From Nitrososphaerota archaeon (GTDB taxonomy: Archaea > Thermoproteota > Nitrososphaeria > Nitrososphaerales > Gagatemarchaeaceae), in the NCBI GenBank assembly GCA_029785825.1, contig JAFLYY010000003.1, forward strand, positions 1 through 37,906: a stretch of DNA of 37,906 nt. The letters run 5' to 3'. Each line of letters starts with the position of its first letter. The first letter of the stretch is position 1. The notes below the pieces were generated by a model that was not told where the DNA came from, searched no databases, and worked only from the letters and a program-made list of their open reading frames with translations. Position numbers and translations under genes: made by a program. This document shows positions 17,747 through 37,543 of the stretch, in pieces.

Positions 17747-18118
17747 GTGAGCGAGCAGAACTCTTCAATCCGGCGGCTTATCCAGCTCAACATCTGCCAA
17801 CCCTCTGACATAAGCGAGGCCAAGGCCGAAGCGGAGAGGCTGGCAGCCCCGGAGTTCGTCGCGAAGCTCCGCCAGGCAGAGAGGCTGTTCGGAGCAGTCG
17901 GGGACGCCAACAGGATGAAGATCCTGCTGCTCCTGTCGAAGAAAGAAAAGTGCGTCTGCGAGCTGGAGTCCGCCCTCGGCATGCCCCAGCCGACAGTGTC
18001 GCACCATCTGGGGGTGTTAGAACAGGCAAACCTCGTCAAGAGGAGCAAGAGGGGAAGGTGGGCCTTCTACGCGCTAACCGACTCCCCTGTCCTGGACCTC
18101 CTCCGGCGCCTCACCTAA
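17747..18118 (+). CDS. arsR: ArsR-family arsenite-responsive repressor
   Basis: The 123-residue protein has a helical N-terminal extension and the ArsR winged helix from about residue 44 ([20 protein letters not shown], then [20 protein letters not shown] and [11 protein letters not shown]). [12 protein letters not shown] places Cys69 and Cys71 as the C-x-C of the classical arsenite/antimonite site in the helix before the recognition helix. The start is GTG at 17747. It is followed within five bases by acr3, so it should repress its own operon until As(III) binds. Confidence 0.9.
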
Positions 18119-18123
18119 GGGGG

Positions 18124-19263
18124 ATGCGGGTCTTGAGCGACAGACTGAGAGGTCGCCTATCGTTCCTTAACCGGTTCCTGACCCTGTGGATATTCCTCGC
18201 CATGGCCGCAGGCGTCGGCGCAGGCTACGCCTTCCCAGGCCTCTCCAGCGAGTTGAACTCCCTCAGCGTCGGTTCGACCTCGATCCCCATAGCCCTGGGT
18301 CTGATCTGGATGATGTACCCTCCCCTGGCCCGCGTCAGGTACGAGGACCTCGGGAAGATAGTGGGCGAGAGAGGCTCCAGGACCATGCTCTCCGCCTCGC
18401 TGGTGTTGAACTGGGTGATAGGCCCGCTCCTCATGTTCGCGCTGGCGTGGGTGTTCCTCGCCGGATATCCAGACCTCAGGAACGGGCTGATACTGATCGG
18501 AGTCGCCAGGTGCATAGCCATGGTGATCGTCTGGAACGGCCTGGCCGACGGTGACAGCGAGTGGGCGGCGATCCTGGTGGCCTTCAACTCAGTCTTCCAG
18601 GTGCTCTTCTATAGCGTCCTCGCCTACTTCTACATCACCATAGCGAGCGGATGGATCGCGGGGCAGGCCACGGTGGTGAACATCTCGCTTCTCGCCGTGG
18701 CGCAGTCTGTCGGGATCTACCTCGGCATCCCGTTCTTCGGCGGGGTCGCAACGCGCGCCTACTTCCTGAGGCGCAAAGGGCGGGAGTGGTACGAGAAGAC
18801 GTTGGTCCCCAAACTCGCTCCGACATCCCTCCTGGCCCTTCTCTTCACAATCCTGGTCATGTTCTCGCTCAAGGGCTCGGCCATCGTCGTCATCCCCTTC
18901 GACGTCCTGCTGGTCGCGGTCCCACTGCTGATCTACTTCGTCGTCATGTTCTTCGCCGCGTTCTTCCTGGGGGTGTACTCGAAGCTGGATTATCCGCGGA
19001 CCACCACCCTAGCGTTCACCGCGGCCAGCAACAATTTCGAGCTCGCGATAGCGGTCGCCGTTTCCGTGTTCGGCCTCGCCTCGCAGGAGGCGTTCGCCAC
19101 GGTCATCGGGCCGCTCATCGAGGTCCCCGTGATGATAGGCCTCGTCAACGTCGCTTACTGGCTCCGGAAGAGATACTTCGTCAGCGCGCCGGCTCGCAAT
19201 GAGACGAGTAACCTCTTGGTCGGCAGGCCGCCCCCAGAAAAGGCAGGGCCGGGGGTCCGCTAG
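18124..19263 (+). CDS. acr3: Acr3-type arsenite efflux permease
   Basis: The 379-residue membrane protein has about ten helices of the BART superfamily. It begins [40 protein letters not shown] holds Cys130, which corresponds to the conserved Acr3 cysteine needed for As(III) transport. Glu-containing late helices ([20 protein letters not shown]) and [20 protein letters not shown] also match Acr3. ATG 18124 is preceded by AAGGGGG as ribosome binding site. It pumps arsenite out of the cell. The stop abuts the arsC start. Confidence 0.93.
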
Positions 19264-19689
19264 ATGGAGACCGTGGCGGGGCGCGGTTCCGGGACACGGT
19301 ATCTCTTCGTCTGCGTCGAGAACGCGGGGAGGAGCCAGATGGCTGAAGCGTTCGCCCGCCGCGCCGGGCTCGTGGCTGAGAGCGCCGGGACCGTGCCAGC
19401 CAGGTCGGTGAACAAGACCGTGGCTGACGCCATGTCCGAACTGGGGCTGGACCTTTCCGACAGCAAGCCGAAGATGCTCTCCATGGACATGATCGACCGA
19501 GCAGACGTCGTCATCACAATGGGGTGCTCGGTCGAGAAGGTCTGCCCGAGGCCCATGCTGAGCAGGATGCAGAAGAAGGTGGTCGACTGGGGGCTCGACG
19601 ACCCAAAGGGGATGCCGCTCCCCGAAGTAAGGAGGATCAGGGACGAGATCGAAAGAAGGGTCGGGGAACTCGTCCGGTCCAAATCATAG
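19264..19689 (+). CDS. arsC: Arsenate reductase, LMW-phosphatase/thioredoxin type
   Basis: The 141-residue protein has the low-molecular-weight phosphatase P-loop CVENAGRS (Cys17, Arg23) near the start. MGCSVEKVCP supplies Cys88 and Cys94 for the intramolecular disulfide relay, so it belongs to the thioredoxin-dependent class. VVDWGLDDPKGMPL holds the catalytic Asp. It reduces arsenate to arsenite for Acr3. It starts directly after the acr3 stop. A CPVC thioredoxin-like protein that could serve it is encoded at 7008-7259. Confidence 0.93.
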   Translation: METVAGRGSGTRYLFVCVENAGRSQMAEAFARRAGLVAESAGTVPARSVNKTVADAMSELGLDLSDSKPKMLSMDMIDRADVVITMGCSVEKVCPRPMLSRMQKKVVDWGLDDPKGMPLPEVRRIRDEIERRVGELVRSKS

Positions 19690-26869: not shown

Positions 26870-28084
26870 TTACGCGCCTCCCGGCGGGAGGGCGTCCTGG
26901 GGCCCGCTGGATCCCCGCAGTGCCGATGGGGGCGCGACAAACCGTCGCGCGGTGAGCACGAAGGCCACGCAGGCGACCGCGCCCCCGATCGAGAAGACCC
27001 CCTGGAGCCCAGCGACTGGTATCAGGGCCACCGCCACGACAGGCGAAAGTACCTCGGCCACCCCGGACGAAGCCTGGAAGGCATAGCTGACGTTGGTGAC
27101 GTCCTCTGCATCGACGGACCTGAACGCGAGGAAGTTGGCGACTGGGAAGACCATCGCATGAGGCACGCTGAAGAGGAGCATCCCGGCGACGAAGACCGGC
27201 CAGGAGGGGGCGAGCCCGACGCAGAGCGCCGAGACCACTAGGAAACCGACTGAGGCCAGGAGCACCTTCCAGGGGTCCATGTTCCTCCCCATGGAGGAGT
27301 AGCGGGCGGCCGCCGACACCAGGAACACCAGGGTGAAGAGGAGGAACGCTTCCCCAGGCGAGAAGCCGAACCTTGCTTCGGCGTATACTCCGCCGTAGGA
27401 CAGGAAGACTGGGAGGAGGAGCGAGTACAGCAGGTTCACTGCGAGGGCGCGTCTGACGCTTGGCTTCGCCAGGGCTCTGGCCCAGCCGACCACCGAGGGG
27501 ACCGGCGGTCTCGGGCGACCCGCTAGGCCGCCCCTCCCTGCCAAGGCCCCGACGGCTCCCAGGGCTGAGACGACGGCCAGTGCTTCAAAGACCCCCGAGA
27601 AGCCATAGACGCCATGCACTCCGTAGGCCACCAGCGGGCCGAGGACCAGCCCCGCCCCCAGAGCCGTGGAGTACACCCCGAGGCCGGTGAATGGCCGCTC
27701 AGGGGCCGAGTCCAGGTGCATGACCGCAGAGAGAAACGGCTGCGGGAGCCCCATCCCTACGCCAGACGCCAGGACCCCGAGTAGGAGGGGGATACTGGGA
27801 ACCCTCGCCCCCAGTGTGAGCATCGACGCGCCCAGGATGGCGAATCCCGCCGTCGATGAGGCTGACTGGTTTCTTATTGCAAGAGTGGCCGCGGCGGCCC
27901 CGACCCCGTTCCCGAGCCACAGGACGACCACGAACACGCCCGCCTCAGAAGGGCTCGCGCCCAGGGAGATGGCGTACAGCGGGACAAGTATCGCCAGGGA
28001 CGATGTCAGGAGCCGCAGGACAAGAGCGATGACGAACCCTGGCCGCATGTAGCTCTGGCTCGGGGCGGTCAACGGGCCCTGCAC
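26870..28084 (-). CDS. MFS transporter
   Basis: The 404-residue protein has about twelve hydrophobic helices in two six-helix halves. The first half starts GFVIALVLRLLTSSLAILVP and LYAISLGASPSEAGVFVVVL. The loop between helices 2 and 3 is short and untypical. The second half starts after the basic loop GLAGRPRPPVPSVVGWARAL. The substrate cannot be told. It begins right at the stop of the glycosyltransferase, so it belongs to the sulfoquinovose-linked operon and may export a glycolipid or sugar. Confidence 0.82.
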   Translation of the reverse strand: MQGPLTAPSQSYMRPGFVIALVLRLLTSSLAILVPLYAISLGASPSEAGVFVVVLWLGNGVGAAAATLAIRNQSASSTAGFAILGASMLTLGARVPSIPLLLGVLASGVGMGLPQPFLSAVMHLDSAPERPFTGLGVYSTALGAGLVLGPLVAYGVHGVYGFSGVFEALAVVSALGAVGALAGRGGLAGRPRPPVPSVVGWARALAKPSVRRALAVNLLYSLLLPVFLSYGGVYAEARFGFSPGEAFLLFTLVFLVSAAARYSSMGRNMDPWKVLLASVGFLVVSALCVGLAPSWPVFVAGMLLFSVPHAMVFPVANFLAFRSVDAEDVTNVSYAFQASSGVAEVLSPVVAVALIPVAGLQGVFSIGGAVACVAFVLTARRFVAPPSALRGSSGPQDALPPGGA

Positions 28085-29188
28085 TCACTCCCCGAGGCGG
28101 TACACCTCTCTGAGCGCCCGGCCGACCTTCTCCGGGGAGAAGAGCGACCCCGCCCGCGCCTTCGCGTTCCTTCCCATCCTCAGCCGCGCCTCGGAGTCGT
28201 CTGCCAGCCTCTGCATGTTGTCTCTCAGACCCTCTTCGTCCCCTACCTCGGAGAGGAGCCCTGAGACGCCGTCCTGGACCACCTCGGCGATAGCGGGTAT
28301 CCTGGTAGCCACGACAGGGATCCCTCTCCTCATGGCGTCTACTACGGCCAGGGCGAACGCGTCCGCCCTCGTGGGGAGCACGAAGACGTCCGTGACCGGC
28401 CAGACCTCGCTCTGCAGGGTGCCTCCGGGGAGGCTGTCGGACTGGCCGACCCGCGGGTCAGACCTGACGATCCCTCTCGACTCGGCCGTCCCGAGGGGGC
28501 CGACGAACACCAGCCTGCACCCGGAGCCTCCTTTCAGAGACCTGAACGCGCGGAGGGTGGCGTCTCCTCCCTTCCTCCGGAACTCCCTCCCGATGTAGAG
28601 GAAGTTGCACCCCCGGTGCTCCCTACCAGAGTCGAGGGCCTCGAAGGGGGGAGGGATCACAAAGACCTTCGAGGGGTCGACTCCGTCCTCGGCAAAGCCC
28701 CGCTTCGCCCACTCGGACCATGTAACCGCCCCGGCGCACCACCTCGAGTTCAGGTACGACGAGAACCCCTCGTTGGCCAGGCGCCTGACCGTCCCTCCGA
28801 TGTTGTTGTACCCCAGCATGAACTGGCCGAATGACTGGTCGCTTTCGTGGACCCAGCGGCGGTCGAATTTCCTGACATCCCAGAAGAACGAATGTACGAC
28901 GGCCGCCCCCTTCTGGTCTATGGGGATGATATGCTCGAGCGCGAAGCGCGCCGCCACCAGGGCGACGTTCGCGGGGTTGAACTCGTAGCTGGCGGCCCGC
29001 TTCGGGTATCTCAGCCGGTCGGTCGCCAGCTTGTACCTCACCCCCGGGGGCGGGTTCAGGAGCCTTCTCAGCGCCCCCGTCCTCGGCCCGCCAGTGAGGG
29101 GGTCTGTGGGGGCAACAACGAGGCAGTTCAAGTCGCGGGCCGGACCTCTCGGCCGCTCCCCGGCGGCCCTCTGGGGTGTCCTCTCCAA
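28085..29188 (-). CDS. GT4-family glycosyltransferase
   Basis: The 367-residue protein has a GT-B fold. The C-terminal domain carries NFLYIGREFRRKGGDATLRA (nucleotide-sugar side), RLVFVGPLG, then DVFVLPTRADAFALAVVDAM and RRGIPVVATRIPAIAEVVQD, in which the E-x7-E-like motif of GT4 appears as Asp-Ala-Phe-Ala-Leu-Ala-Val-Val-Asp. The N-terminal half holds the acceptor site. The start is TTG at 29188, four bases after the UDP-sulfoquinovose synthase stop. It therefore probably transfers sulfoquinovose to a lipid or an N-glycan (inference from context). Confidence 0.85.
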   Translation of the reverse strand: MERTPQRAAGERPRGPARDLNCLVVAPTDPLTGGPRTGALRRLLNPPPGVRYKLATDRLRYPKRAASYEFNPANVALVAARFALEHIIPIDQKGAAVVHSFFWDVRKFDRRWVHESDQSFGQFMLGYNNIGGTVRRLANEGFSSYLNSRWCAGAVTWSEWAKRGFAEDGVDPSKVFVIPPPFEALDSGREHRGCNFLYIGREFRRKGGDATLRAFRSLKGGSGCRLVFVGPLGTAESRGIVRSDPRVGQSDSLPGGTLQSEVWPVTDVFVLPTRADAFALAVVDAMRRGIPVVATRIPAIAEVVQDGVSGLLSEVGDEEGLRDNMQRLADDSEARLRMGRNAKARAGSLFSPEKVGRALREVYRLGE

Positions 29189-29192
29189 GCGC

Positions 29193-31523
29193 CTACGATG
29201 GGACCTTGGCGGCCTGGTCTTTAGCCAGTTCTATCAGCTCCATGGATGCGGGCCAGCCCGTGAGGTCCCTGGGCAGCTGGAAACCGTCCGAGGTGACCTT
29301 CTTTCGCCCGCCCCAGGCCACCGAAGGAGCAAGCAAGGTCTTCATCTTCATTGCCCGCGGCTTGTACTTCACCACCACTTGGAACATCTCCCTGATGACG
29401 TCGTCGATTTGCTTGGTCCTCGAGAATCCCAACGACGGGAGGACCTTGTGCTGCACCTTGTAGTAGTGCGCCTCGCTCTCGACCCGGGGGTTCCTGACCT
29501 TCTCGAAGCCGACTCTGTAGCCGAACTCTTCGGCGATGGCCTTCACCTTCTCCGCCAGCTGCACCGTGTCGAAGGTCTCGTCTATCTGGTTGACGACCCT
29601 GTAGTCGCCCTCGGCCGGAGGGTTGTCGAGCAGCAGCGACAGGCACTTTATGCTGTCGTAAAGCGACAGGTATCCTCTGGTCTGCCTCCCCTTGCCGTAG
29701 ATGAGGAGGCTGTTGTAGACAACGGCCTGGGCCACGTACTTGTTGATGACCGTCCCCCAGACAGAGTCCAGGTCGAACCGCGTGGCAAGCGACTCGTCGA
29801 CGATCTCACCTGTCTGGCTCCCGTAGACCACCCCCTGCATCACGTCGGTCGCCCTGAGGCCGTGTATCTTGTTGGCCAGCATCACGTTGAACGTGTCGAA
29901 CACCTTGCTCAGGTGGTACCAGCTCCCCGCGGCCCTGGGGAACATCGCCCTGTGCCTTCGCCCGTTCCTCCGGATCTCCACCGGGCCCTCAGTGATCTCG
30001 ATGTTCGGCGTCCCGTACTCCCCCATGGTGTTTCCACTGAAGGCTGACTTTCCTCTTCGCCTTACCAGTATCACTCCGGTGGGAACAGTGCAGCAGTAGA
30101 CGAGGCCGTTGTAAGGCTCCCAGGCTTGGCTTCGCCTGCGAGCCTTCGCGTTGGGGTGCCTCGAAATGCTGAGGTAATACTCGCTTGGCCCTTTGCGCCG
30201 ATGTTCACAAATGGTGGCACCATAGCCCAGTTTGGTTGCTATCTCCTGGACATCCGAGAGCAGGCGCATCGACTTGCTGTAGTAATACATCGACCCTGTC
30301 TTCTTCCAGACATGACCGTCGCCTAGCATGAGGGCATCGAAGAGTATTCGGAGCTGCCTCTTGCTCACGTTCTTGAGCGCAACCGGGATATATTTCTTGG
30401 AGGAGTCCCCGAAACGAGAAAGATAGTTGGCAAGGTGGTTATCAGAGATTTCAAGATTGAGCATGACGGTCCCACGTCGCCGGTCTGTCTCTTCGGATTC
30501 TGTGGCGTTCAACCCCAGTCCATTGACAGCATCCCTTGCCGCATCGGCCTTCCAAGAGCCCTTCTCCTGATAGGTGTAGGTCGCCGTGGGTTCGCCGCCT
30601 CTGCGTCGTACGGTGCCCTCGGCTATGAACCAGCCAAAGAATCTCAACCAGTTGTCCATCCTGAACGCTTGGGACTGGGCCAGCCTGCTATGTCCATAGT
30701 AGCTCCTCACCTGCATGGCCGGGAGTTCAAAGACATCTACGTCGGGCTGCATCCAGACCCCTGACTTTGGCACCGAGAAGTTCTTTCCGAATACCTCTTC
30801 AGAGGTTCCTACACGAATGGGTCCCGCTCTGTTCCGATATTGTGCCCCCGTATACCTGTGAATCACCCGATGATTTGGTGTTATCAGGAAGTCGATGTTT
30901 TGGGTCTTGATTCTGAGCATCCGCCCGGAGTACTGGTAGGCAACGATATTCGAAGGCCTGTGGTATTGTATCTCTTCAGTCAGAGGATCAAGGCAACAGA
31001 CCTCGTCGTCGTACTTCAGGTCGAAGAAGTGCTTCCAGCCATCCCTTGTCAGAACCTCTGTTTCTTCGTCGTAGCAACCCATCTTCAGGAGGTGGGCCTC
31101 CGGGACGTGTCTTGTCATCGAGAAGACTATGTTCAGGTTCGTGGCTACGTTGTTCAGCTCGGTGTAGAGCGCGTGCTCCTGGTCTATCATGCTGAACGGC
31201 GCGCTCCGCTGCTGGGCGAGGTGTACCACGCTCTGGGGCTGGTACTTCGAGATCACCCAGTCCACTTCCTTCGGATCCCTGGCGTCCGCCCGGACAAAAG
31301 TCAGGTTGTCCTTCCCCGAAGCGCGCTGATACGCCGCCACCCGCGAGGACGGGCTTCCAATGGGGACCAGAGAGTCCGACCCAACTGACTCCACCAGCCG
31401 CCGGGTCACCAGGTTGTCGACTATCACGACGTTCTTCTCGGTGCGCCATGCGAGGTGCAGGGAAAGGGGCCATCCGATGTAGCCGTCCCCGCCGAAGACT
31501 ACGACAGAGTCCTTCAACGGCAC
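29193..31523 (-). CDS. agl3: UDP-sulfoquinovose synthase interrupted by an intein
   Basis: The SDR-type enzyme makes UDP-sulfoquinovose from UDP-glucose and sulfite with bound NAD. Visible are VVVFGGDGYIGWPLSLHLA (NAD site with the family's GGDGYxGW), HLAQQRSAPFSMID, catalytic TMGEYGTPNIEI, and WYHLSKVFDTFNV with the Tyr-x3-Lys pair. A 349-residue intein (residues 150-498) splits the chain directly before the Thr of TMGEYGTP. The host protein after splicing has about 427 residues. GTG 31523 was chosen because a TATA-like GAATATATAC lies at 31569-31578. The longer frame from 31604 would place the start upstream of that box. The product feeds the glycosyltransferase encoded next. Sulfolobus Agl3 makes the same precursor for S-layer N-glycans. 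Confidence 0.9.
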   Translation of the reverse strand: MPLKDSVVVFGGDGYIGWPLSLHLAWRTEKNVVIVDNLVTRRLVESVGSDSLVPIGSPSSRVAAYQRASGKDNLTFVRADARDPKEVDWVISKYQPQSVVHLAQQRSAPFSMIDQEHALYTELNNVATNLNIVFSMTRHVPEAHLLKMGCYDEETEVLTRDGWKHFFDLKYDDEVCCLDPLTEEIQYHRPSNIVAYQYSGRMLRIKTQNIDFLITPNHRVIHRYTGAQYRNRAGPIRVGTSEEVFGKNFSVPKSGVWMQPDVDVFELPAMQVRSYYGHSRLAQSQAFRMDNWLRFFGWFIAEGTVRRRGGEPTATYTYQEKGSWKADAARDAVNGLGLNATESEETDRRRGTVMLNLEISDNHLANYLSRFGDSSKKYIPVALKNVSKRQLRILFDALMLGDGHVWKKTGSMYYYSKSMRLLSDVQEIATKLGYGATICEHRRKGPSEYYLSISRHPNAKARRRSQAWEPYNGLVYCCTVPTGVILVRRRGKSAFSGNTMGEYGTPNIEITEGPVEIRRNGRRHRAMFPRAAGSWYHLSKVFDTFNVMLANKIHGLRATDVMQGVVYGSQTGEIVDESLATRFDLDSVWGTVINKYVAQAVVYNSLLIYGKGRQTRGYLSLYDSIKCLSLLLDNPPAEGDYRVVNQIDETFDTVQLAEKVKAIAEEFGYRVGFEKVRNPRVESEAHYYKVQHKVLPSLGFSRTKQIDDVIREMFQVVVKYKPRAMKMKTLLAPSVAWGGRKKVTSDGFQLPRDLTGWPASMELIELAKDQAAKVPS
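30030..31076 (-). mobile_element. Intein with LAGLIDADG endonuclease in agl3
   Basis: The element codes for 349 residues from Cys (31076-31074) to Asn (30032-30030), with Thr as the first residue of the following host part. Block A is CYDEETEVLTRDGWKHF, block B is IDFLITPNHRVIHR with the T-x2-H, and the two endonuclease helices are LRFFGWFIAEGTV and LRILFDALMLGDGHV. Block F/G is VYCCTVPTGVILVRRRGK and AFSGN. The residue before the terminal Asn is Gly instead of the usual His, as in the inteins with a VP-x-G-x-x-x-VRR-x-GK ending. The base composition is clearly lower in GC than the host parts on both sides, so it arrived by transfer. Both endonuclease helices keep an acidic residue, so homing may still work. 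Confidence 0.93.
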
Positions 31524-31568
31524 GGCCCGCCTCGCAGGACTCTCAACTCGCGGAACCTCCTCGGAGGT

Positions 31569-31609
31569 GTATATATTCGCAGAGAACGTTGCGTATGAAC
31601 GCAACGTTC
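31569..31609 (-). promoter_or_regulatory. agl3 promoter with 11-bp inverted repeat
   Basis: GAACGTTGCGT (31584-31594) and ACGCAACGTTC (31599-31609) are perfect 11-bp arms around four bases. GAATATATAC at 31569-31578, read on the minus strand, is a TATA-like box just downstream. The repeat occupies the activator/BRE side of the promoter and starts 17 bases after the winged-helix gene's stop, so it is a good operator candidate for that regulator. A terminator role is less likely because no T-run follows. Confidence 0.65.
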
Positions 31610-37424: not shown

Positions 37425-37543
37425 GGAGCCGCCCCCTCGCACACCCTCTTCTTATCCGCTGCTGAATGAGCTTCCCTGTCTTAAATATGGGGGCCGGGGC
37501 CGCTCAGCAAAGTGTCAGAATATCACTCAGATGGTGCCCGCCG

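Follow-up and report, generated by a model that had tools for sequence, protein, structure and literature searches.

The closest described relatives of the enzyme considered here are Agl3 of S. acidocaldarius and SQD1 of Arabidopsis, neither of which carries an intein. S. acidocaldarius Agl3 needs His95, Arg101, Met145, Glu147, Tyr148, Tyr182 and Lys186; Met145 is essential, E147A and Y148A impair activity, and T144A is fully active (PMC4388408). Among inteins, a phage RDF intein with a native penultimate Gly splices well, and replacing this Gly with His slows splicing (PMC5050341). Our search of the literature, limited to open papers, found no paper on an intein in a UDP-sulfoquinovose synthase, in agreement with the preliminary description of this DNA, whose author knew of none in a sulfosugar SDR enzyme.

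The window, a stretch of 37,906 nucleotides that spans the entire contig C3 of its bin, carries an Agl3/SQD1-type gene interrupted in frame by an intein (codons 177-525 of the open reading frame at 29193-31604, minus strand). The intein begins with CYDEETEVLT and ends with SAFSGN, followed by TMGEYGTP with Thr as the +1 residue. It is inserted between the Gly and the Thr of KMG/TMGEYGTP (the slash marks the insertion point), in the active-site loop of the enzyme. The preliminary description had reported 349 residues at 30030-31076 with splicing blocks A, B, F and G and two LAGLIDADG helices; the coordinates are exact and the residues are present. The features of the locus, in the order in which the gene is read, are:

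29193..31604, minus strand: precursor gene, Agl3/SQD1-type UDP-sulfoquinovose synthase with in-frame intein; single open frame of 803 codons
31077..31604, minus strand: N-extein, the NAD-binding half, ending in HLLKMG, with the His and Arg of VVHLAQQRSAP retained
30030..31076, minus strand: class 1 intein with LAGLIDADG endonuclease, 349 aa, Cys1 to Asn349
31038..31076, minus strand: splicing block A, CYDEETEVLTRDG, with the Cys1 nucleophile; C1, T6 and G13 invariant in 27 inteins
30852..30899, minus strand: splicing block B, NIDFLITPNHRVIHRY, with Thr66 (B:7), His69 (B:10) and Val71 rather than Trp at B:12
30615..30650, minus strand: first LAGLIDADG helix, WLRFFGWFIAEG, with acidic Glu153
30315..30353, minus strand: second LAGLIDADG helix, LRILFDALMLGDG, with acidic Asp253
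30057..30104, minus strand: splicing block F, LVYCCTVPTGVILVRR, with Cys328 at F:4 and no block-F His
30030..30053, minus strand: splicing block G, GKSAFSGN, with penultimate Gly348 and terminal Asn349, then Thr+1
29193..30029, minus strand: C-extein, beginning with TMGEYGTP (Thr+1) and including the Y-x-x-x-K motif in SWYHLSK
28085..29188, minus strand: downstream GT4-type glycosyltransferase (Pfam Glycos_transf_1)
26870..28084, minus strand: MFS transporter, next in the gene cluster (Pfam MFS_1)

The first possible start codon of the precursor is a TTG (803 aa), with alternatives at codon 28 (GTG) and codon 30 (TTG). According to which start codon is used, the predicted spliced product is 454, 427 or 425 residues long, and the length of about 427 residues proposed earlier holds for one of these. 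The exteins match the NCBIfam UDP-sulfoquinovose synthase model NF041015 in two pieces with 480.9 bits (E 2.7e-144), short of the cut-off of 575. Because an intein-free paralogue is also below the cut-off, at 489, the interruption is not the cause of the low score. The window Agl3 belongs to a divergent sub-family of Agl3/SQD1 below the equivalog cut-off even without an intein, and its product is for this reason graded only as likely UDP-sulfoquinovose. The exteins also match the solved SQD1 structures 1i24 and 1qrr (about 297 bits), with the break between 1qrr residues 144 and 145, and align with Agl3 and SQD1 across the full enzyme. The mutation-tested residues are kept, and all of the required Agl3 residues listed above are present, in HLAQQRSAP, TMGEYG and SWYHLSK. 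In Agl3 the equivalent of the +1 Thr is Thr144; since T144A is fully active (PMC4388408), this Thr is needed for splicing chemistry and is not shown to be needed by the enzyme. The description of TMGEYGTP as catalytic is supported for the active-site loop but not for its Thr. The gene order agl3, GT4, MFS is the same at an intein-free orthologue (L050, genome G151), and agl3 and the GT4 glycosyltransferase likely form one operon.

Judged by its sequence, the element is a class 1 intein of a phage and archaeal family with Cys at F:4 and a penultimate Gly, a family already known. It has Cys1, T-x-x-H in block B (Thr66 and His69), a terminal Asn349 followed by Thr+1, and a HINT fold. Both LAGLIDADG helices are intact with their acidic residues kept, and Pfam LAGLIDADG_3 is matched with 46.5 bits, above its cut-off of 22.5; TIGR01445 (intein_Nterm) is matched below its cut-off. 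An AlphaFold model of the intein has a mean pLDDT of 93.7, and the best Foldseek matches are whole endonuclease-bearing inteins, namely TliVMA (E 1.4e-17, TM 0.69), PhoVMA, PI-SceI and PI-PfuI. A class 3 intein, in which splicing is initiated by attack of a block-F Cys, would also have Cys at F:4, and the sole solved structure matched by sequence belongs to a class 3 intein, with an E value of 0.084 that is not significant. However, class 3 inteins require a WCT triplet (PMC5050341), and the window intein has Val at B:12, Cys at F:4 and Ser rather than Thr at G:5, together with Cys1; in addition, Cys is the second most common F:4 residue over all inteins (PMC4031507). Assignment to class 3 was rejected on this triplet, and we hold it to be very unlikely.

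The penultimate His that is common, though not obligatory, in class 1 is replaced by Gly348. In an alignment of 27 related inteins, Cys1, Thr66, His69 and the terminal Asn are invariant, and Thr+1 is not. In the same alignment, positions G:6 and F:4 are near-invariant as Gly and Cys, so that Gly348 and the F:4 Cys mark the intein family and do not indicate decay or recency. The Agl3 inteins lack the block-F His and have PTGV where many relatives have N/T/D-H; the related MCM inteins L073, L074, L076 and L079 lack this His as well. The block-F Asp is also absent from the window intein. With an F:4 Cys and neither a penultimate nor a block-F His, the order or rate of the splicing steps could be unusual.

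Intein-free orthologues from the same genus (G151, G172, G059 and G169) align to the window DNA with 81-83% identity, and the alignments stop at 30029 and restart at 31078. This clean empty site bears out the placement of the insertion directly before the Thr of TMGEYGTP. As counted from the listing for 201 genomes of the order, 29 full-length Agl3-type genes are uninterrupted and 6 are interrupted, all 6 at the same place. The inteins of G157, G059 and G066 are identical in protein to the window copy, and that of G085, from the same genus, is 71% identical. The intein of G064, from another family, is 67% identical, with exteins at only 49-50%. A scan of named genomes added a Micrarchaeaceae MAG (L062) with an intein at KMG/TMGEYG that is 59% identical, with a C-extein at 48%. 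When 400 genomes of the class were searched with a profile, in a draw that does not list G064 or G157, no additional close copy came up. The preliminary description had proposed a check of homologues for insertions at TMGEYG; those in G085, G064 and the Micrarchaeaceae MAG carry splicing motifs.

Comparison of whole-intein pairs gave pN values of 0.17-0.28 against pS values of 0.76-0.93, alike for the splicing and endonuclease domains; since most pairs are saturated at synonymous sites, dN/dS is to be read qualitatively only. Both the splicing and the endonuclease parts are maintained by purifying selection in four distinct copies. With splicing and endonuclease residues kept under purifying selection in four diverged copies at one site, chance is excluded. 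These data also bear on a reading of the element as a degenerate, non-splicing insertion that would leave the gene dead or yield cleavage products only, with paralogues supplying the enzyme. The absence of the penultimate His, the block-F His and the block-F Asp, and the paralogues present in some genomes, would be expected on that reading. However, the open reading frame is intact and under purifying selection in all four distinct copies, the catalytic residues of the exteins are conserved, a Gly at the penultimate position and a Cys at F:4 are normal in the family, and a phage intein with a penultimate Gly does splice (PMC5050341). The interrupted gene is, moreover, the sole Agl3 found in two genomes, and we consider a degenerate insertion very unlikely.

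In the tree of host genes, the nearest sampled relatives of the intein-bearing genes of Nitrososphaerota are all intein-free (L021, 91% identical to the window; L027, 81% to G085; L011, 79% to G064). Monophyly of the four intein-bearing hosts, and with it vertical descent of the intein from a common ancestor of these genes, was rejected by the AU test (p 6.6e-40), as was monophyly of the two same-genus hosts alone (p 4e-8). Parsimony requires four changes on this tree, whose long branches make the placement of the Micrarchaeaceae gene uncertain. In the intein tree, by contrast, the four Agl3 inteins form one clade with support 100/100. A single intein clade set against polyphyletic hosts with intein-free nearest relatives argues for repeated lateral homing, including between phyla; the trees imply that one intein lineage entered the same Agl3 site several times, across two archaeal phyla. 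A viral donor was sought and none was identified: four distant viral-contig matches (24-35%) were obtained, with phage at about 28% among the best listed, and phage-family profiles gave just a partial match, to thymidylate synthase, which probably arises from an intein within that profile.

The intein has a GC content of 0.54 against about 0.61 for the exteins, and a GC3 of 0.66 against 0.87. In the preliminary description, this difference and the penultimate Gly were taken as signs of a recent arrival. The incongruent trees uphold a lateral arrival, and the residue and the lower GC are both real, but neither dates it. The Gly is no oddity, for the reasons given above, and the MCM, RadA, Cdc6 and PolB inteins of the same genome (four of the five checked) have GC3 values 0.11-0.21 below those of their exteins, with intein ends placed by eye and the PolB start accurate to a few residues. 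The fifth, a PurD-like intein, has a GC3 close to that of its host. The argument for recency from low GC was accordingly rejected.

Much of the window has a second copy in the same bin, on its main contig C1 (383-399 kb and 409 kb); this copy shows 67-78% DNA identity, and its agl3 is intein-free. Stretches of G157, G059 and G066 match the window contig at 99.86-99.95% identity, whereas the PurD-like locus of C1 shares just 73-84% identity with those genomes. G059 has two PurD-like loci and looks mixed. The diverged copy on C1 and the near-identity of the window contig to the other three genomes make it likely that the contig is misbinned and comes from the species of G157 and G066; alternatively, some 30 kb would have been transferred very recently. 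The intein itself is unaffected by this question. At 17747-19689 the window encodes an ArsR-like regulator, an SBF-family (Acr3-like) transporter and an ArsC-like phosphatase, with a C1 copy 74-78% identical. Positions 694-770 and 37465-37541 match exactly the opening 77 bases of contigs C4 and C8; these matches probably reflect overlaps in the assembly graph and not biological repeats.

We put the probability at roughly 0.9 that the element is a genuine class 1 mobile intein that has invaded repeatedly and is best read as selfish and neutral to its host. The residues suggest the following course. The agl3 gene and the intein would be translated as a single precursor. Cys1 would undergo an N-S acyl shift aided by Thr66 and His69, Thr+1 would take over the N-extein, and Asn349 would cyclise, so that the ligated enzyme would regain the KMG-TMGEYGTP active-site loop. 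The LAGLIDADG domain is predicted to cut intein-free copies at the site encoding the near-invariant K-(M/L)-G-T-M-G, and repair of the cut would copy the intein in. The distribution of the intein shows several such invasions, which crossed Agl3 sub-families as well as archaeal phyla.

In G085 and in the Micrarchaeaceae genome, MAGs that may be incomplete, the interrupted gene is the sole Agl3 found and is therefore probably expressed and spliced. G157 (65% complete) likewise shows the interrupted copy only, and these three cases argue for splicing. Intein-free Agl3 paralogues exist in G064, G066 and the window's bin. This pattern touches on the earlier suggestion that splicing might depend on conditions and so control the supply of sulfoquinovose, with the intein as a switch on UDP-sulfoquinovose output that responds to metal, redox, pH or temperature. 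Conditional splicing has been published for other inteins (e.g. PMC6195587), the adjacent Cys328 and Cys329 of block F together with Cys1 could be sensitive to redox or metal, and the intein-bearing gene is the sole Agl3 found in G085 and the Micrarchaeaceae MAG. Yet the intein is not conserved with a control role: the nearest sampled relatives in Nitrososphaerota lack it, intein-free paralogues accompany it in the window's bin, G064 and G066, and its distribution is that of a mobile element. The suggestion thus found no support, and we regard a switch as very unlikely. A more elaborate version, in which the intein lineage would be a specialist for the active-site loop in sulfosugar synthases, would have spread between a DPANN archaeon and Nitrososphaerota and would gate sulfoquinovose synthesis through redox- or metal-responsive splicing at Cys1 and Cys328-Cys329 wherever its host gene is the sole copy, seems highly improbable. 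The selfish, host-neutral intein remains our preferred reading.

Several other inteins were observed alongside this one. In the window's bin, contigs C1 and C2 of G000 carry inteins (L051-L055) in MCM, RadA, PolB, a Cdc6/Orc1-like protein and a VirB4/HerA-like ATPase. C1 also carries, at 1161245-1162309 (L046, 1746-2810), a PurD-like intein at a second site, WT/CRFGYP, which has Asp at F:4 and is 28% identical to the Agl3 intein. PurD-like ATP-grasp inteins at STGEMG/T occur in Nitrososphaerota and a Micrarchaeota MAG (L068, L070, L075 and L095-L098). Their DNA site, ATGGGN/ACN, resembles the Agl3 site, AAGATGGGN/ACN, and ectopic homing between the two sites is possible.

Compared with known systems, the type of intein is a familiar one and its Agl3/SQD1 host enzyme appears to be new. 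The inteins in the gp3 nucleotidyltransferase of Bixzunavirus (e.g. phage Colt) align over the full length with 28% identity (E 9e-17) and share the F:4 Cys, the RRNGK tail of block F, the penultimate Gly and Thr+1; they differ in their phage host protein and are distant in sequence. Archaeal inteins in MCM, PolB, EndoQ-like and PurD-like proteins (from Nitrososphaerota, Bathyarchaeota, Micrarchaeota and others) align over the full length with about 28-36% identity and share the CY(D/S)E..TEVLT start, the F:4 Cys and the GN end, and the PurD-like inteins also share the MG/T site; these inteins interrupt other host proteins, named here from a reading of the exteins, and fall in separate clades of the intein tree. 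A bacterial relative from Pyrinomonadaceae (L063, 3001-3999) aligns over the full length with 36% identity and adjoins the Tyr of the YxxxK motif in a UDP-xylose-synthase-like enzyme, another sugar-nucleotide SDR; it differs in SDR family, site, bacterial host and Cys+1. A sulfosugar SDR enzyme joins the list of intein hosts, and the bacterial relative occupies the active site of a different sugar-nucleotide SDR. At least three further lineages, of which one belongs to another phylum, have been invaded at the same spot. This is a clear natural example of a single intein lineage entering one site in gene copies that are unrelated and lie in different archaeal phyla, DPANN included, and it makes the intein a marker of gene flow between such archaea. 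Lacking both the penultimate and the block-F His, it also provides a useful test of how class 1 inteins cyclise Asn without them.
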